Origin: Chthonomonadales bacterium
GTDB taxonomy: Bacteria; Armatimonadota; Chthonomonadetes; Chthonomonadales; CAJBBX01
Direction: 5' to 3'
Length of the DNA stretch: 52,986 nt
NCBI GenBank assembly: GCA_012517255.1
Contig: JAAYVH010000104.1
Span: 1-52,986 of the forward strand
The notes below the pieces were generated by a model. The model saw only the letters and a program-made list of their open reading frames with translations, was not told the origin of the DNA and ran no database searches. Positions 18,464-27,932 of the stretch are shown here, one piece after another. The position numbers were made by a program, and so were the translations under genes. Position 1 is the first letter of the stretch. The number at the start of each line of letters is the position of its first letter.

Positions 18464-18493
18464 TTGACGCACAGGCGCGATGCGTGTTACAAT
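18464..18493 (+). promoter_or_regulatory. Promoter of the peptide/radical SAM cluster
   Basis: TTGACG (18464-18469) and TACAAT (18488-18493) are 18 nt apart, and TGT directly before the -10 makes it an extended -10 as well. Transcription would start near 18500, leaving a leader of about 137 nt before the peptide gene. It is the strongest promoter signal in the gap between the oxidase operon and the cluster. Confidence 0.7.
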
Positions 18494-18636
18494 AGCCTTG
18501 CCGGTCTGAACAGTGCAGAGCGAACGAACTCGTCGTCCGTTCCAGCGGGACGGGTCAGGAACGACCACCGGCAGCGCGAGGTGATATCCTCGAGCCGCGC
18601 GGTTGAAGCATGCCTCAGAAAGGAACAACTGCCATC

Positions 18637-18804
18637 ATGAGTGATGTTGAGAACAGCAAGAGCGGTCGGACTCGGTCCGCCTACGTCAAGCCGTCGGCGA
18701 TGTTCGTCGAGCTTAAACCGGAAGAGCGCTTGATGTCGTGCCGCAAGACACCGTCGGAAAACGAGTGCGACGATCCGAGCGGGACGGCAGTTAACGCTAG
18801 CTGA
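18637..18804 (+). CDS. Candidate RiPP precursor peptide
   Basis: A 55-residue peptide, hydrophilic at both ends and with no homology I recognise. Its N-terminal half holds AYVKPSAMFVEL (15-26), like the YxxP leader motif bound by PqqD-type recognition domains. The C-terminal half has two cysteines (C35, C44), many acidic and small residues, and ends in Ser (S55). Position first in a cluster with PqqD, radical SAM, kinase and peptidase genes, right behind a good promoter, is the main reason to call it a precursor. The ATG at 18637 has AAAGGA 12 nt upstream; an in-frame ATG at 18610 has no SD. The boundary between leader and core is unknown. Confidence 0.65.
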   Translation: MSDVENSKSGRTRSAYVKPSAMFVELKPEERLMSCRKTPSENECDDPSGTAVNAS

Positions 18805-18849
18805 CCCGTCGGCCACAACCTACCCGCGCTAGCGGGACACGCGTATTCC

Positions 18850-18884
18850 CAAGGCGGCGGCCGGACCATGGGTCTGCCGCCTTG
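18850..18884 (+). terminator. Hairpin after the peptide gene, possible attenuator
   Basis: A 9-bp perfect stem, CAAGGCGGC / GCCGCCTTG, with an inner GACC/GGTC stem. It lies 46 nt after the peptide stop and 166 nt before the PqqD gene. Only a short T run (GTTT) follows. It could be a partial terminator or an RNA-stabilising end that keeps the peptide in excess over the enzymes. The rest of 18805-19049 shows no gene I can support. Confidence 0.5.
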
Positions 18885-19049
18885 CGGTGTTTCTGACGGA
18901 CATCCCTGGGACCCTGACACATTGAGCGTTGCGGTGCGCGCTCCAGCCAAACTGGAAGCCGTATGCCGCAGACAGCCGTATTGTTCGCTGACGTAAGCAC
19001 ACTTGCGTACGGCTGCCCCTCGGCGCCGTCCGCAGACGGAGGAGCACAC

Positions 19050-19331
19050 ATGAAAGCAAAGAGCGGATTCGTACTGCGCGAAGTCGGCGACGGCACTGTA
19101 CTGGTGCCGACCGGTGAGCGCGTTGTGGATATGAATGGCATGATCGTCCTGAACGACACGGGCAAGTTTATCTGGGAGCGCCTGGACGGGTCGCACACGC
19201 CGGCGCAGATTGCACAGGCGCTGGTGGACGTCTACGATGTTTCGCTCGAGGACGCGACGGCAGATGTAGAGAGCTTCGTAGCCGAGCTTGGCCAACTGGG
19301 GATCCTCGAAGATGGGCCTGCTGCCAACTGA
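19050..19331 (+). CDS. PqqD-like RiPP recognition protein
   Basis: A 93-residue PqqD-family protein. These bind the leader of a ribosomal peptide and present it to a modifying enzyme. The family pattern is clear: MNGMIVLNDTGKFIWERLDG, then TPAQIAQALVDVYDVSLEDA, then VESFVAELGQLGIL. It is a stand-alone version, as in PQQ and lasso-peptide clusters. An excellent SD (GGAGGAG, 19038-19044) fixes the ATG at 19050. Its end overlaps the radical SAM gene by 20 nt, which suggests coupled synthesis of the two partners. Confidence 0.9.
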   Translation: MKAKSGFVLREVGDGTVLVPTGERVVDMNGMIVLNDTGKFIWERLDGSHTPAQIAQALVDVYDVSLEDATADVESFVAELGQLGILEDGPAAN

Positions 19332-20385
19332 CTACAAGGAACTGACCCGCGCCATCATGACGCAATCGGCGGATGATGGCCGCCCCGTCAACGGTACGTT
19401 CGAACTCACCAGTCGCTGCAACCTCGGCTGCAAGATGTGCTACATCCGCACCCGAGCTGGCGATCGGGCGATGAAGGCGTCGGAGCTAACCGCCGAACAG
19501 TGGCTCGACCTGGCGCGTCAGGGCGTTGACGCCGGCATGCTGTTCTTGCTGCTGACCGGCGGCGAGGTGTTTCTGCGGCCCGACTTCTTCGACATCTATG
19601 AGCCCCTGACTGATATGGGCCTTCTGATCACCCTGTTCACCAACGCGACCCTGATCACCAAGAAGGCTGCCGATCGGCTGGCCAAACGGCCTCCCAATCG
19701 AACCGAGGTCACGCTGTATGGCGCGACCAAGGAGACCTACGAAGCGGTCACTGGCGAGAAGGGCGGCTATGAGAAGTGCATCCGAGGCATCGAGCTGCTC
19801 CTGGAAGCAGGCGTCACGCTCAAGCTGAAGACCACGCTCAGCCGGCTGAACGCCCATGAGTTCGACCAGATGCGCCAGATGTCCGAGAACTGGGGCCTGG
19901 ACTTCGGCGCCTCGTGGCTCCTTTCGAAGCGGCGCGATCAGTGCAGCAATCTCGTCGAGGAGATCCGCTTCAGCCCGAAGGAGGCCGTTGACCTCGAGGC
20001 ACTGGACGAGAAGGTCGTCCAGAACTACCGGGAGATCGCCCAGCGGGAGCCGACCACGGCCCCCGACGACCCGTTCTACTGTCTCGCAGGCAAGTCGTCG
20101 TTCGTCATCGGCCCGTCTGGCGATATGAACGTCTGCATTGACCTCTGCCTGCCCAGGGCGCGGCCTACCGAGATCGGTCTGGTTCCCGCCTGGAATCAGG
20201 TGCGCCAGTTTATCCGATCGGTGGCCCAATCACACGAGTGCAAGTCATGTGACCTCTACAACTACTGCACCCGCTGTCCGGCCTGGGGCTACACCGAGAG
20301 CGGTGACGTGTCCAGCTCGGTGGTGTATCTCTGCGAAATCGCCAAGGAGCGCAAACAGCGCTATGGCAATCTGGTAGCCGTATGA
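19312..20385 (+). CDS. Radical SAM/SPASM peptide-modifying enzyme
   Basis: A 357-residue radical SAM enzyme. The [4Fe-4S] SAM site is CNLGCKMC (C36, C40, C43), with the GGE motif at 83-85 (LLTGGEVF). The C-terminus is a SPASM domain with C257, C275, C279, C310, C313, C319, C322 and C341, including the C-x12-G-x4-C and C-x2-C-x5-C-x2-C spacings for two auxiliary clusters. Such enzymes (PqqE, AlbA, MftC types) make C-C or thioether crosslinks in peptides. With the PqqD gene immediately upstream, the small peptide at 18637 is the likely substrate. The bond formed cannot be read from sequence. I chose the ATG at 19312, which overlaps pqqD; it has no strong SD, consistent with coupling. Confidence 0.9.
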   Translation: MGLLPTDYKELTRAIMTQSADDGRPVNGTFELTSRCNLGCKMCYIRTRAGDRAMKASELTAEQWLDLARQGVDAGMLFLLLTGGEVFLRPDFFDIYEPLTDMGLLITLFTNATLITKKAADRLAKRPPNRTEVTLYGATKETYEAVTGEKGGYEKCIRGIELLLEAGVTLKLKTTLSRLNAHEFDQMRQMSENWGLDFGASWLLSKRRDQCSNLVEEIRFSPKEAVDLEALDEKVVQNYREIAQREPTTAPDDPFYCLAGKSSFVIGPSGDMNVCIDLCLPRARPTEIGLVPAWNQVRQFIRSVAQSHECKSCDLYNYCTRCPAWGYTESGDVSSSVVYLCEIAKERKQRYGNLVAV

Positions 20386-21266
20386 ACCAACTGGCTCTGA
20401 GCATCGCCGGTCTGCGCTTGCTGGTGGAGAGCGACGATCCATTCCCGCCAACATTCGTCGGGGAGAAGTTGAAGCCGTTCGTGGTCGCAGACAACGCTAG
20501 CGCGGAGCCGCATATCCGCATCAGGTGGCGCGACGCCGATCCGCGCCACCTGACGCTCGGACCGGAGCTCTTTGTGCCTGGCTCCGTGTGGCGAATGCAC
20601 GCCCCAGCCGACGGCTCGAACGGCTGCGTCGGGGTTATCTCCTACTCCGATGATGGACGACTTTCTGAACACGCCGCGGTCGTTGAGGTCGACCCAGCGT
20701 GGTCGGAGATTGCCCTGACCGAGAAGAGCCGGCCCGCGCCGTGGTCCAGTCTGCTGGCCCTCGGGGCGGGCGAACTCATCGTACGCACGCGCATCATTCT
20801 GGAGAATGGACTGGTCTTCCATTCGTCCGCGATTGATGACAACGGCCGAGGCATCCTCATGGTCGGCCACGCTGGCGCCGGCAAGAGCACGCAGGCGTCT
20901 ATATGGGCCACTCAGCCTGGCGCCATTGCGCTCAGCGACGACCGCGTCGGCGTTCGGCTAGATGGCAGTCAGGCGGTTGCCTATGGCACGCCATGGGGAG
21001 GCACTGCAGGCATCGCGCGCAACCACTCGGTGCCACTGCACGCAATCCTCGTGCTCGAACAGGCTCCCGAGAACGCGCTGGCTCCGTTAGCTCCCGCCGA
21101 TGCTGCGCCGCTCCTGCTGGCGCGGTGTTTTCTGCCATACTGGAGCGGGCGCATGATTGGCGACGCCATGGACATCATGATCAAGCTTCTCAGCGCGGTT
21201 CCGATCTACCAGTTCCGGTGCGTGCCGGATGAGTCCGTCATCCCGGTGGTACGCTCGGTCTTGTGA
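20382..21266 (+). CDS. HPr kinase-like protein of a peptide cluster
   Basis: A 294-residue protein of the HprK-related kinases found in RiPP clusters. The core holds VFHSSAI (146-151), the Walker A GHAGAGKST (162-170), LSDDRV (184-189) and YGTPWGG (201-207), all in the HprK C-terminal-domain order. No HPr-type N-terminal domain is seen; residues 1-125 are specific to this group. In the paeninodin-type lasso clusters a kinase of this kind phosphorylates the C-terminal Ser of the precursor. The precursor here also ends in Ser, so the same activity is a reasonable inference. It starts in an ATGA overlap with the radical SAM gene. Confidence 0.8.
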   Translation: MNQLALSIAGLRLLVESDDPFPPTFVGEKLKPFVVADNASAEPHIRIRWRDADPRHLTLGPELFVPGSVWRMHAPADGSNGCVGVISYSDDGRLSEHAAVVEVDPAWSEIALTEKSRPAPWSSLLALGAGELIVRTRIILENGLVFHSSAIDDNGRGILMVGHAGAGKSTQASIWATQPGAIALSDDRVGVRLDGSQAVAYGTPWGGTAGIARNHSVPLHAILVLEQAPENALAPLAPADAAPLLLARCFLPYWSGRMIGDAMDIMIKLLSAVPIYQFRCVPDESVIPVVRSVL

Positions 21267-21745
21267 ACATCCCCTGTCGCGATCTCATCCCCATTCTGCA
21301 GGCCGTCCTGAGCGCCGGCGGTCGGGTCCGTTTCACCGCAACGGGCGGCAGCATGATCCCGTTCATACGGAGCGGAGAGGTCGTCGAACTCGAGCCCATC
21401 GCATTCCCCGATATTCAGCGCGGTGATGTCATCCTCGCAAGACGGGCGGACGGGGTATACGTATTGCATCGTGTTGGGCAGCTCTCGGCTGGCTCGGTTT
21501 TCCTCGTCAGCGATGCGGGCCGACCGGACGGGTGGATCGAGGCCGATCAGATCATCGCCCGTGCCGTGTCGGTGTTCCGGCGAGGACGGGAGTTGCCCTT
21601 GAACACGCCCGGCGCCCGACGGACGGGTCTCATCTGGATGCGCTGCGGCTCCCTCGCCACAGGCGCGCTCGGACTGTACCTCGCCCTGCGACGTCGCATT
21701 CGGCTCGGAGGGCGGGAACAGGAGTGCAAGAGCAAGCTGGCTTAG
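21263..21745 (+). CDS. S24/S26 signal-peptidase-like protease
   Basis: A 160-residue protein with the catalytic serine motif GGSMIPFI (S30) of S26 peptidases, then RGDVILARR, and VLHRVG (H69), where bacterial signal peptidase I has Lys but the SipW/ER-type has His, and finally VSDAG (D84). So a Ser-His type site is likely. A weakly hydrophobic segment near 125-145 may bind the membrane, and a basic tail follows. In this cluster it could remove the leader from the modified peptide. It begins at a GTG in a GTGA overlap with the kinase gene. Confidence 0.75.
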   Translation: MNIPCRDLIPILQAVLSAGGRVRFTATGGSMIPFIRSGEVVELEPIAFPDIQRGDVILARRADGVYVLHRVGQLSAGSVFLVSDAGRPDGWIEADQIIARAVSVFRRGRELPLNTPGARRTGLIWMRCGSLATGALGLYLALRRRIRLGGREQECKSKLA

Positions 21746-22989
21746 CCAAGGATCGATCAACAAGTCCTCCATCGGACGGGCAGGGGCCTCGCCAGCAGCC
21801 GATAGACGCCGATGATCCCGTCGTCCGACTGTTGCTCTCCCTATGCTCATGGCCGCGCGATCGGGCGACCATAGACGCTGACGAGCTCGCCGATGAGCAG
21901 GGCTGGAGCCGTGCCCTTACGCTCGTCAAACTGCACGGGCTGATCCCGATCTTGTACGCCGCGCAGCGTGAGGGGTGTCTGTCGCGCGACATCCCTGACC
22001 CGGATGCGCTCCGCCGAGCCTATTACGTGCAGGCTGCGCGCGCCGCTCTGGCGCTGGACGAGCTGGGCGACATCGCCGGTGCACTGAGCCGCCACGGCGT
22101 GCCATGCATCGTGCTGAAGGGCGCTGCCTCTATGCTCAGCATCTACCGCGATCCGGCGATGAGAGTGCTGAGCGACCTCGACTTGCTGGTGCATCTCGAT
22201 GATCTGGATCAGGCCGTTGCTGCGCTCGAAGGCGCCGGCTATCGCAAGGTAGTCACTACCACCTCACGGGAAGACGAATGGCTCTCCGTGATGTACTTCG
22301 ACGGGATCAGCATGTACAGGGGGCGCAACCTACCGATCGAACTCCATTGCAGCTTTTTGGGCGGCATCGGTGACGCGGATCAAGCTGTCTCGGAGGCATG
22401 GGAGCGCTCTGTTCGGCTCCAGCTAGAGGGTCAGGCGTTGACGGCGCTATGTCCGGAGCACGCCTTCATCACCGCAGCATGCCATCTCTACCGAAACTCC
22501 CATCGCAGTCTGCCCTACATGAAGGATGTGGCCGACCTGCTGCTGCTCGCGCAGCAGGTGGACGAGCGTGAGGGGTGGAACCGCCTGCGCGACACGTGTC
22601 GGCGCTGGAGTGTCGAGCGTGAGGTTCATGGAGTCTGCGCGTTCATCAACGCCTATCTGCCAGCCACGGTGCCGCTCGGCAGTGGAAACCCGCCGGCGTT
22701 CACACCGGCGGATCTGGCCTATGCACTGGATCGGCTGGAGGGCCGGGGGCGCTTGACCGAGGGGCTTGCGGCGCGTCTGCGTCTGATCGGACGCCTGCCT
22801 TCATGGCAGGCTCGGTGTCGCTTCCTCTGGGGACTAATCGCGCCGAGCAAGGAGTTCCTGCGCTGGCGCTACCGCATCCGTGACGGGCGGTCTCTGGCGC
22901 CCTATTACGCACGCCATGTGCTCAAGGCCGTCAAGCGCACAACGATGGACGCCGTCCTTCGCGCCCGGCAGCGCCGACGCTATCGATAA
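21724..22989 (+). CDS. Nucleotidyltransferase family protein (NTP_transf_5-like)
   Basis: A 421-residue protein with the pattern of the nucleotidyltransferases found beside lasso peptides: VPCIVLKGAASMLSIYRDP (about 126-144), then MRVLSDLDLLVHL with the DxD metal site near 151-153, then IELHCSF and a His-rich helix. In paeninodin/pseudomycoidin-type clusters the equivalent protein adds groups to the phosphorylated peptide end. Here it follows kinase and peptidase genes, so a tailoring role is inferred. Start: GTG at 21724 (22-nt overlap with the peptidase gene, GGGCGG upstream); the long frame upstream of it lies inside the peptidase gene. It ends the cluster, converging on the methyltransferase gene. 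Confidence 0.75.
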   Translation: MQEQAGLAKDRSTSPPSDGQGPRQQPIDADDPVVRLLLSLCSWPRDRATIDADELADEQGWSRALTLVKLHGLIPILYAAQREGCLSRDIPDPDALRRAYYVQAARAALALDELGDIAGALSRHGVPCIVLKGAASMLSIYRDPAMRVLSDLDLLVHLDDLDQAVAALEGAGYRKVVTTTSREDEWLSVMYFDGISMYRGRNLPIELHCSFLGGIGDADQAVSEAWERSVRLQLEGQALTALCPEHAFITAACHLYRNSHRSLPYMKDVADLLLLAQQVDEREGWNRLRDTCRRWSVEREVHGVCAFINAYLPATVPLGSGNPPAFTPADLAYALDRLEGRGRLTEGLAARLRLIGRLPSWQARCRFLWGLIAPSKEFLRWRYRIRDGRSLAPYYARHVLKAVKRTTMDAVLRARQRRRYR

Positions 22990-26448: not shown

Positions 26449-26991
26449 TCAGGGGAGCTCGTCAGCGACTACTTGATCGTTCGTGTAGACGCAGATCTCG
26501 GCGGCTATCTTCAACGCCTCGGTGACGATCTCCCGGGCCGACATGGACGTATTGCGGAGCAGAGCCTTGGCGGCAGCCTGCGCATAGGCGCCTCCCGACC
26601 CGATCGCCAGCACGTCGTCGTCAGGCTCCAGCACATTGCCGTCACCCGATAGGAGATAGAGCTTCTCCGTATCGGCGACGATGACCAGAGCCTCGAACCG
26701 CCGCATTAGCCTGTCGGTCCGCCACTCACGCACGAAGTCTATGGCAGCGCGCGTAAGGTTGCCATTGGCCGCCTGCAGCTTCGCCTCGAATCGATCGGCC
26801 AGCGCGAGCGCATCGGCCACCGAACCGGAGAAGCCGGCGACGACGCGGTCATGGTACATGCGGCGGATCTTTCGGGCGGTCGCCTTGACGATCACCTGAT
26901 CCATACTGACCTGACCGTCGCTGGCGATCGCGACCTTGCCATCTCTGCGAGCAGCAACGATCGTTGTGGCATGGGTCTTCGATGGGCTCAT
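26449..26991 (-). CDS. hslV: ATP-dependent protease subunit HslV
   Basis: A 180-residue N-terminal-nucleophile protease, the proteolytic ring of HslUV. The propeptide MSPSKTHA precedes the Thr pair (T9-T10 in HATTIVAARRDGK); T9 is the expected catalytic residue after cleavage. SDGQVSMDQ and KATARKIRRMY, with the Lys, are conserved. The usual partner hslU is not next to it: after hslV the operon ends and the convergent rsgA begins, so HslU must lie elsewhere. It starts in an ATGA overlap with xerC. Confidence 0.93.
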   Translation of the reverse strand: MSPSKTHATTIVAARRDGKVAIASDGQVSMDQVIVKATARKIRRMYHDRVVAGFSGSVADALALADRFEAKLQAANGNLTRAAIDFVREWRTDRLMRRFEALVIVADTEKLYLLSGDGNVLEPDDDVLAIGSGGAYAQAAAKALLRNTSMSAREIVTEALKIAAEICVYTNDQVVADELP

Positions 26992-27932
26992 CTGTCCGTA
27001 TCTCCTCCCTGTTTGGGCGGCGCAGAGGACTTCTCTTCCGCACGGGGGTGGGCTTTCCTGTGCACGGCTTTCATTCGCTCGGAGGTGACGTGCGTGTACA
27101 CCTGCGTCGTCGCAATGCTGGCGTGCCCCAGCAGCTCCTGAACCGACCGCAAGTCCGCGCCATGGTTCAGCAGATGCGTGGCGAAGGTGTGGCGCAAGAC
27201 GTGGGGCGTGATCTTGAGCCTATCACAGGCGCGCGAGGCGTACCGGTCGAAAACGCGGCGAATGCCCCGGTCCGAGAGTCTGCCGCCCCATCGATTCAGG
27301 AACAGCGCAGGGCATGGGCGACGCCCCGCCGCGGCCAGCTCGGGCCGCCCCTCGGTCAGGTATCGCTCGAGCGCCTCTACAGCAGGCCTGCCGATCAAGG
27401 CGATGCGGTCCTTGCCGCCTTTGCCCTCGCGTACCCGCACCTCGTGGGTCTGCAGATCGAGATCGCCCACATCGAGATGGACTGCCTCGCCGGCGCGCAG
27501 GCCGCTGGCGTAGAGCATCTCAAGAATGGCCCAGTCCCTCAATCCGGCCGGCGAACGGTCGGGAAGCGCCAGCAGCACGTTCAGTTCGCTGTCCCGGAGC
27601 CACTTGGGGAGACGGGTGCCCTTGCGTGGAGCCCGGAGAGATCGCGACGGATCCTCCGTCACCCAGCCATGCTGACGCGCCCAGCGGAACAGCGAGCGGA
27701 CTGCAGAGAGCTTCCGCGCAATGGTGGATCGCGCATAGTCATGGCCGGCTAGCTCCGCCAGATAGCCGCGGAGGTGAGCCACCGTGACGGCTGCAAGATC
27801 CCGGACCTGCTGGGATTCGAGGTACTCGGCCAGTTGAACCAGATCGCCGGAATAGGCCGCAAGCGTGTGCGGCGAGCTGCCGCGCAGCGTGCGGCGGTAG
27901 TCCAGATAGGCGTCAATGCTATCGGTGACCAT
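26988..27932 (-). CDS. xerC: Tyrosine recombinase XerC/XerD
   Basis: A 314-residue site-specific recombinase that resolves chromosome dimers at dif. The SAM-like N-terminal domain covers residues 1-100. The catalytic set is complete: Arg in SGLRAGEA, Lys in GKGGKDR, His and Arg in HVLRHTFATH, His in LGHASI, and the nucleophile Tyr in VYTHV. XerC is favoured over XerD by the xerC-hslV pairing known from other bacteria, but the two cannot be separated by motif alone. The Pro/Lys-rich 30-residue tail is extra. It overlaps the EamA gene by 14 nt. Confidence 0.9.
   Translation of the reverse strand: MVTDSIDAYLDYRRTLRGSSPHTLAAYSGDLVQLAEYLESQQVRDLAAVTVAHLRGYLAELAGHDYARSTIARKLSAVRSLFRWARQHGWVTEDPSRSLRAPRKGTRLPKWLRDSELNVLLALPDRSPAGLRDWAILEMLYASGLRAGEAVHLDVGDLDLQTHEVRVREGKGGKDRIALIGRPAVEALERYLTEGRPELAAAGRRPCPALFLNRWGGRLSDRGIRRVFDRYASRACDRLKITPHVLRHTFATHLLNHGADLRSVQELLGHASIATTQVYTHVTSERMKAVHRKAHPRAEEKSSAPPKQGGDTDR

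Follow-up and report, generated by a model that had tools for sequence, protein, structure and literature searches.

The system considered here is a six-gene cluster in a 52,986-nt stretch of DNA (the window, to which, whole, all coordinates refer) from a Chthonomonadales bacterium, whose 4.8-Mb genome is called G000 and has the window as contig C257, other G numbers denoting relatives and L numbers loci. On the + strand, from a promoter at 18464-18493 to base 22989, there are in order six open reading frames (ORFs) for a small peptide, a PqqD-like protein, a radical S-adenosylmethionine (SAM) enzyme, an HprK-like kinase, an S26-like peptidase and an NTP_transf_5 protein, and all of these, with the promoter, are as a preliminary description of this DNA had them. 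That description took the cluster to specify a ribosomally synthesized and post-translationally modified peptide (RiPP), and the finding of conserved peptides beside the same enzyme set supports it. The features are as follows.

18464..18493, + strand: sigma-70-like promoter, TTGACG-18 nt-TACAAT (a consensus match only, at 10/12 positions; single occurrence, 0.1 expected in shuffles).
18637..18804, + strand: precursor peptide of 55 aa; ribosome site AAGGA; homologous peptides known from five relatives within the family and from ~100 other loci.
18850..18884, + strand: GC-rich hairpin between peptide and pqqD, from folding; no T run.
19050..19331, + strand: PqqD-like discrete RiPP recognition element (RRE; leader-binding protein), 93 aa; Pfam PqqD PF05402 3.2e-19; good ribosome site GGAGGAGCACACATG.
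19312..20385, + strand: radical SAM/SPASM maturase, 357 aa; PF04055 1e-20; CX3CX2C and SPASM Cys.
20382..21266, + strand: HprK-like peptide kinase, 294 aa; H147, K168, D186, D187; profile match to 1jb1.
21263..21745, + strand: S26-like (archaeal/ER-type signal peptidase) protease, 160 aa; TIGR02228 4e-8; S30, H69, D84; predicted leader peptidase.
21724..22989, + strand: NTP_transf_5 nucleotidyltransferase-fold protein, 421 aa, its GTG start uncertain; PF14907 6e-43.

The earlier statement that the genes are nearly all overlapping holds for the five enzyme genes (successive overlaps of 20, 4, 4 and ~22 bases) and fails for the peptide gene, which a 245-base gap holding the hairpin separates from pqqD; the hairpin is a possible partial terminator or mRNA stabiliser. 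The clustering is beyond chance, because the gene order is repeated in two other members of the family, where the peptide is 53-64% identical. At E <= 1e-40 the radical SAM gene is present in 6 of the 31 genomes of the order Chthonomonadales, all of one family. G008 and G009 have the complete six-gene set, and G002, G003 and G004 have peptide-PqqD-radical SAM-S26 with no kinase between and NTP_transf_5 visible in two of the three (the G002 contig ends). Peptide, PqqD and S26 are thus present in all five family relatives with the radical SAM gene, and NTP_transf_5 in four, the contig of the remaining one ending first. The check proposed earlier, for a conserved small peptide upstream of pqqD in relatives, therefore gave a positive answer both within the family and well beyond it.

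The window peptide has a leader with YxxP and EERLM, a core with Cys35 and Cys44, and Ser55 as its final residue. In homologous peptides a leader with [K/R]..[Y/W]xxP and E-E/E-Q..L is followed by a Cys-containing core that is hypervariable in both length and sequence, the whole being 40-98 aa long; at least two Cys occur after residue 20 in 106/106 of the Ser/Thr-ending precursors that were counted, all of more than 35 aa. On the core side the last residue is the sole constant feature. No NCBIfam or Pfam model describes these precursors, and so annotation pipelines based on those models would miss them. One match of the peptide, to TIGR04464 (LipL41 chaperone; E 0.0025), was rejected as chance at 17.7 of 60 bits.

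Does the constant last residue go with the kinase? The profile used to detect precursors covers nothing but the leader and is therefore blind to the C-terminus; it found 121 precursor ORFs in 106 loci. Among the 102 that are kinase-associated, i.e., within 6.5 kb of a kinase, the final residue is Ser in 93 and Thr in two, the seven others being in L043, L047, L049, L055 and L104, with two fragments in L093. For comparison, Ser endings amount to 4-10% in five enzyme families and 10.7% in unrelated short ORFs. A profile from six seeds, two of them Cys-ending, gave 41/42 kinase-associated precursors ending in Ser, and a loosely defined sequence pattern brought in a further four kinase-adjacent peptides with Ser at the end (L193, L194, L211, L227). 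From the other side, all eight kinase-less loci of known context have precursors ending in residues other than Ser/Thr. Searching whole genomes with a Ser-ending precursor and no kinase near the radical SAM gene disclosed a kinase elsewhere in 5/5: in G1261 it lies in the same region, slightly beyond the reach of the first scan, as part of a fusion with a radical SAM protein, in G210 it is on another contig together with S26 and NTP_transf_5, and in G002, G003 and G004 it is alone. Genomes whose precursors have other endings lack the kinase genome-wide in 4/4 cases (G292 Lamprocystis, G293 and G1262 Methylococcaceae, G297 Cereibacter); the precursor of the Lamprocystis type has PCGC as its end. 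The C-terminal Ser is accordingly a well supported candidate for phospho-acceptor as far as sequences allow, and this association, together with the intact His-Lys-Asp-Asp residues of the kinase, lends support to the phosphorylation of the peptide that had been suggested.

The same rule extends to precursors away from the cluster. When the order was searched with a profile of the Armatimonadota peptides, G000, G008 and G009 each proved to have a second precursor, unlinked to the cluster, with ends KS, RS and DS. That of G000, MTDIQDSGSRMPYSRPVVRVVAIATEERLLTCGKIVSGVSGCTGNLDKS, is on contig C152:22699-22848 (L248:4700-4849), just upstream of an NTP_transf_5 gene, and genes for a radical SAM enzyme, PqqD and kinase are absent from its vicinity; with its matching leader, Cys pattern and terminal Ser it is probably served in trans by the cluster enzymes.

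Could the HprK-like protein instead regulate some other, HPr-like, protein, the operon being shared for control and not for peptide chemistry? Its distant similarity to HPr kinase/phosphorylase is what such a role would have in its favour. That the presence of the kinase tracks the last residue of the peptide across phyla makes it very improbable, as do the 15 loci in which kinase and radical SAM enzyme are encoded as one fused ORF (L077, L082, L085, L100, L197, L199-L201, L206, L208, L209, L213, L219, L223, L224). Along with two S26-NTP_transf_5 fusions (L039, L088), these fusion ORFs support action of the enzymes on a common substrate.

Taken singly, PqqD, the radical SAM enzyme and NTP_transf_5 have strong matches in Pfam and NCBIfam, the S26-like protein a moderate one and the HprK-like protein a weak one. 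The kinase alone is below the Pfam cut-off, and its identification is nevertheless firm, since a profile built from ten homologues has HPr kinase 1jb1 as top match (E 1e-4) with His, P-loop Lys and Asp-Asp-Arg aligned. H147, K168, D186 and D187 correspond to the His-Lys-Asp-Asp motif of lasso peptide kinases and are invariant in the close set; the Asp-Asp motif was counted by alignment, a regular expression having missed many real motifs. The structural model (predicted local distance difference test score 92) has phosphoenolpyruvate carboxykinases as best fold matches at a template modelling (TM) score of ~0.45, i.e., of the PEPCK/HPrK type with support at the superfamily level only. Arg188, which follows the Asp-Asp motif, may possibly contact a carboxylate. 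In an exploratory comparison of phylogenetically non-independent loci, the precursor ends in Ser/Thr in 83/84 loci with Arg188 and in 5/9 without it, and in the L043, L047 and L049 kinases Tyr replaces Arg188.

The CX3CX2C motif of the radical SAM enzyme and its SPASM Cys257, 275, 310, 313, 319, 322 and 341 are invariant in six relatives; the nearest solved structure is SkfB 6efn, and no curated radical SAM family reaches its cut-off for the window enzyme, all scores being far below. Among homologues of the S26-like protein, approximately 89 in number, the triad has Ser in 94%, His in 100% and Asp in 100%, and a fold search has signal peptidases at the top, the best being human signal peptidase 7p2p at a weak E of 1.7e-3. 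DxD and a third Asp are invariant in 54 NTP_transf_5 homologues.

There is also full-length similarity of the radical SAM enzyme to the MftC and NirJ2 profiles, and with a PqqD-like protein beside a SPASM enzyme it brings to mind a peptide that, as with PQQ and mycofactocin, is consumed as the scaffold of a small cofactor-like product, here one tailored by kinase and nucleotidyltransferase. This is improbable: the cores, in peptides of 40-98 aa, are hypervariable, unlike those of cofactor precursors, there are several precursors per genome, and the terminal Ser rule points to an intact C-terminus as substrate.

The closest characterised set is that for linear polyphosphorylated peptides (LPP), from the lpp cluster of Paenibacillus alginolyticus, described as Bacillota-restricted (Popov et al. 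2026, PMC13381572). It shares four of the five core genes of the window cluster, all but the radical SAM gene, and the likeness comprises a discrete RRE, an HprK-like kinase, an NTP transferase, a signal-peptidase-like Ser-His-Asp leader peptidase, a YxxP leader and a variable core. However, the LPP core set includes an MsbA-like transporter, with none flanking the window cluster, the main text on LPP has no mention of radical SAM enzymes, and the LPP leader motif YxxPxVLxHQxIxFETxxS is absent from the window peptide, which has YVKPSAMFVELKPEERLMS. Since this very combination of RRE, kinase, NTP transferase and SpI-like peptidase phosphorylates core Ser3, the window kinase might likewise act near the core start, the C-terminal Ser being no more than a feature by which this or another enzyme recognises the peptide; in a YxxP-anchored alignment by eye Ser34 of the window peptide falls at the LPP Ser3 position. 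That position is not conserved, though, the residue preceding the first core Cys being variously S, A, G, T, R, F, N or D while the last residue is nearly constant, and the kinase-less loci are without terminal Ser. Phosphorylation near the core start is, then, rather unlikely.

Phosphorylation of the C-terminal Ser itself has its precedent in the lasso peptide kinases PadeK, ThcoK and SyanK, which act on that residue of their precursors (PMC8498205, PMC9266682). Paeninodin (PadeK) and pseudomycoidin (PsmK/PsmN) clusters resemble that of the window in the PqqD-like RRE, His-Lys-Asp-Asp kinase, precursor C-terminal Ser, nucleotidyltransferase-type protein and [Y/W]xxP leader. They differ in their cyclase and B2, in place of which the window has a radical SAM/SPASM enzyme and an S26-like peptidase. 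The absence of both had been pointed out, and indeed the six genes and nine flanking genes include no asparagine-synthetase-like macrolactam cyclase, nor does the locus (cluster and flanking genes) have a transglutaminase-like B2 leader peptidase; identity as a lasso peptide was rejected on both grounds. When the whole genome was searched for B2, PF13471 matched once and marginally, at 28.5 bits (cut-off 26), in a 553-aa frame that is unlinked to the cluster; G008 has no match. That an S26-like peptidase may work in B2's place, as was proposed, has an experimental precedent, by analogy, in the LPP leader peptidase LppS with its triad S29, H68 and D93 (PMC13381572).

With its PqqD, radical SAM/SPASM pair and HprK-like ScmC, SynChlorMet (NCBIfam TIGR04248-TIGR04251, ScmC-ScmF) is also akin. 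Identity with it was rejected, the window proteins being far below the cut-offs (ScmC 30.5/125 bits, ScmD 37.6/100, ScmE 84.6/400, ScmF 81.9/400). Most of 17 ScmC loci (L279-L295, from the phylum of G295) have an S26-like gene, often NTP_transf_5, and several have small YxxP peptides; these have periodic Cys-Gly-rich cores and no Ser end, though ScmC keeps His-Lys-Asp-Asp/Glu. To the thioether maturases SkfB, AlbA and PapB the likeness is in CX3CX2C, a seven-Cys SPASM domain and a Cys-containing core; a SPASM enzyme with a Cys core, as in sactipeptides and ranthipeptides, is present, the thioether to carbon being predicted only. All told, the locus is best regarded as a radical SAM maturase joined to a tailoring module of the LPP/paeninodin kind. 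No description of the combination of PqqD, radical SAM enzyme, kinase, S26 and NTP was found in a literature search that covered a minority of the subscription papers, so that an earlier description is possible.

The pathway that we favour, at a probability of about 0.7, has the precursor bound by the RRE, modified by the radical SAM enzyme, phosphorylated on Ser55, capped, and relieved of its leader. We take it to be a genuine RiPP pathway, in which steps of the lasso and LPP type (recognition, phosphorylation, leader removal) are coupled with a radical SAM step. Judging from characterised relatives, the PqqD-like RRE would bind the precursor (55 aa) through its YxxP leader, and the radical SAM/SPASM enzyme would then modify the Cys-containing core, for which its family and the Cys content make a Cys thioether crosslink the likeliest product. 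The kinase would phosphorylate the Ser55 hydroxyl, perhaps repeatedly, the target being supported by covariation and the chemistry by homology to PadeK, ThcoK and SyanK (PMC8498205, PMC9266682). The NTP_transf_5 protein may next cap that phosphate with a sugar (hexose) or a nucleotide, as suggested by PsmN. Capping by nucleotidylation or otherwise was part of the preliminary description; nucleotidylation is uncertain, as with PsmN, the characterised homologue, there is a hexose on the phosphate in vivo, direct glycosyl transfer itself being unproved (PMC9266682). Finally the S26-like Ser-His-Asp peptidase, with its substrate presented by the RRE, would on the model of LppS cut the leader near EERLMS/C. 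A -3/-1 or lipobox-like rule for cleavage before Cys35 was rejected, the -1 residue being too variable.

Several points weigh against this pathway. Kinase is present and terminal Ser absent in five loci, L043, L047 and L049, which are of one Armatimonadota clade, and L055 and L104. On the tree the kinase state changes three times only, which gives two to three independent pairs and so leaves an independent-pairs test powerless, and the association cannot reach significance by it. LppK acts on Ser3 of the core and not on the C-terminus (PMC13381572), and related kinases can therefore pick another Ser. No transporter, MsbA-like or other, flanks the cluster in the window. The Cys thioether is a prediction from the enzyme family, and the putative hexose or nucleotide product is linked to PsmN by homology alone.

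How general is the arrangement? Among 84,980 species scanned, 80 loci with a taxonomic name came to light, in Gammaproteobacteria, Desulfobacterota, Acidobacteriota, Chloroflexota, Nitrospirota, Omnitrophota, Bacillota, Elusimicrobia, Rokubacteria and others, and further genomes were added. PqqD, radical SAM enzyme, kinase, S26 and NTP_transf_5 co-occur repeatedly, with the order variable and the genes sometimes split or fused, and within Gammaproteobacteria the family is sparse (2/369 genomes). We lean, by a narrow balance, to a widespread undescribed RiPP class, present in at least 10 phylum-level groups, whose peptides are modified by a radical SAM enzyme and have an obligatory C-terminal Ser capped by a dedicated kinase (then by sugar or nucleotide), and in which that Ser routes precursors, including unlinked ones, to the kinase. 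Phosphorylation of a C-terminal Ser was known before from lasso peptides; a phosphorylated RiPP family whose leader protease resembles signal peptidases came with LPP in 2026. What is new is the sequence rule linking kinase to the terminal Ser of the precursor, and a cluster that joins both known systems to a radical SAM maturase. This suggests a portable module, made up of leader binding, phosphorylation, capping and leader removal, that works with different core chemistries. The terminal Ser is, besides, a simple filter for finding precursors, those that are unlinked included, and permits a one-residue test (S55A) of the role of the kinase.

Among the loci covered, four without kinase, S26 or NTP (L054, L057, L059, L064) have precursors with a GN[YF]PxxxxPCxC core, in two tandem copies in Cereibacter (L064). 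In L162 (G292:C127, Lamprocystis) the radical SAM reading frame has one in-frame TGA stop, and in L165/L215 (G1215:C30, a Syntrophus genome) there are two in-frame TAG in a frame with a short 204-residue match. Across related loci no extra partner gene recurs, the commonest being ABC_tran with 4/88 flanking ORFs sampled. In the window the cluster is isolated, with cox (cytochrome oxidase) genes upstream and homocysteine methyltransferase/MTHFR and RsgA genes downstream, and a plasmid origin search gave no match. Further along, at 26449-27932 on the - strand, a proteasome-type (HslV-like) subunit adjoins a phage-integrase-type recombinase, which resembles the ordinary hslV-xerC arrangement.

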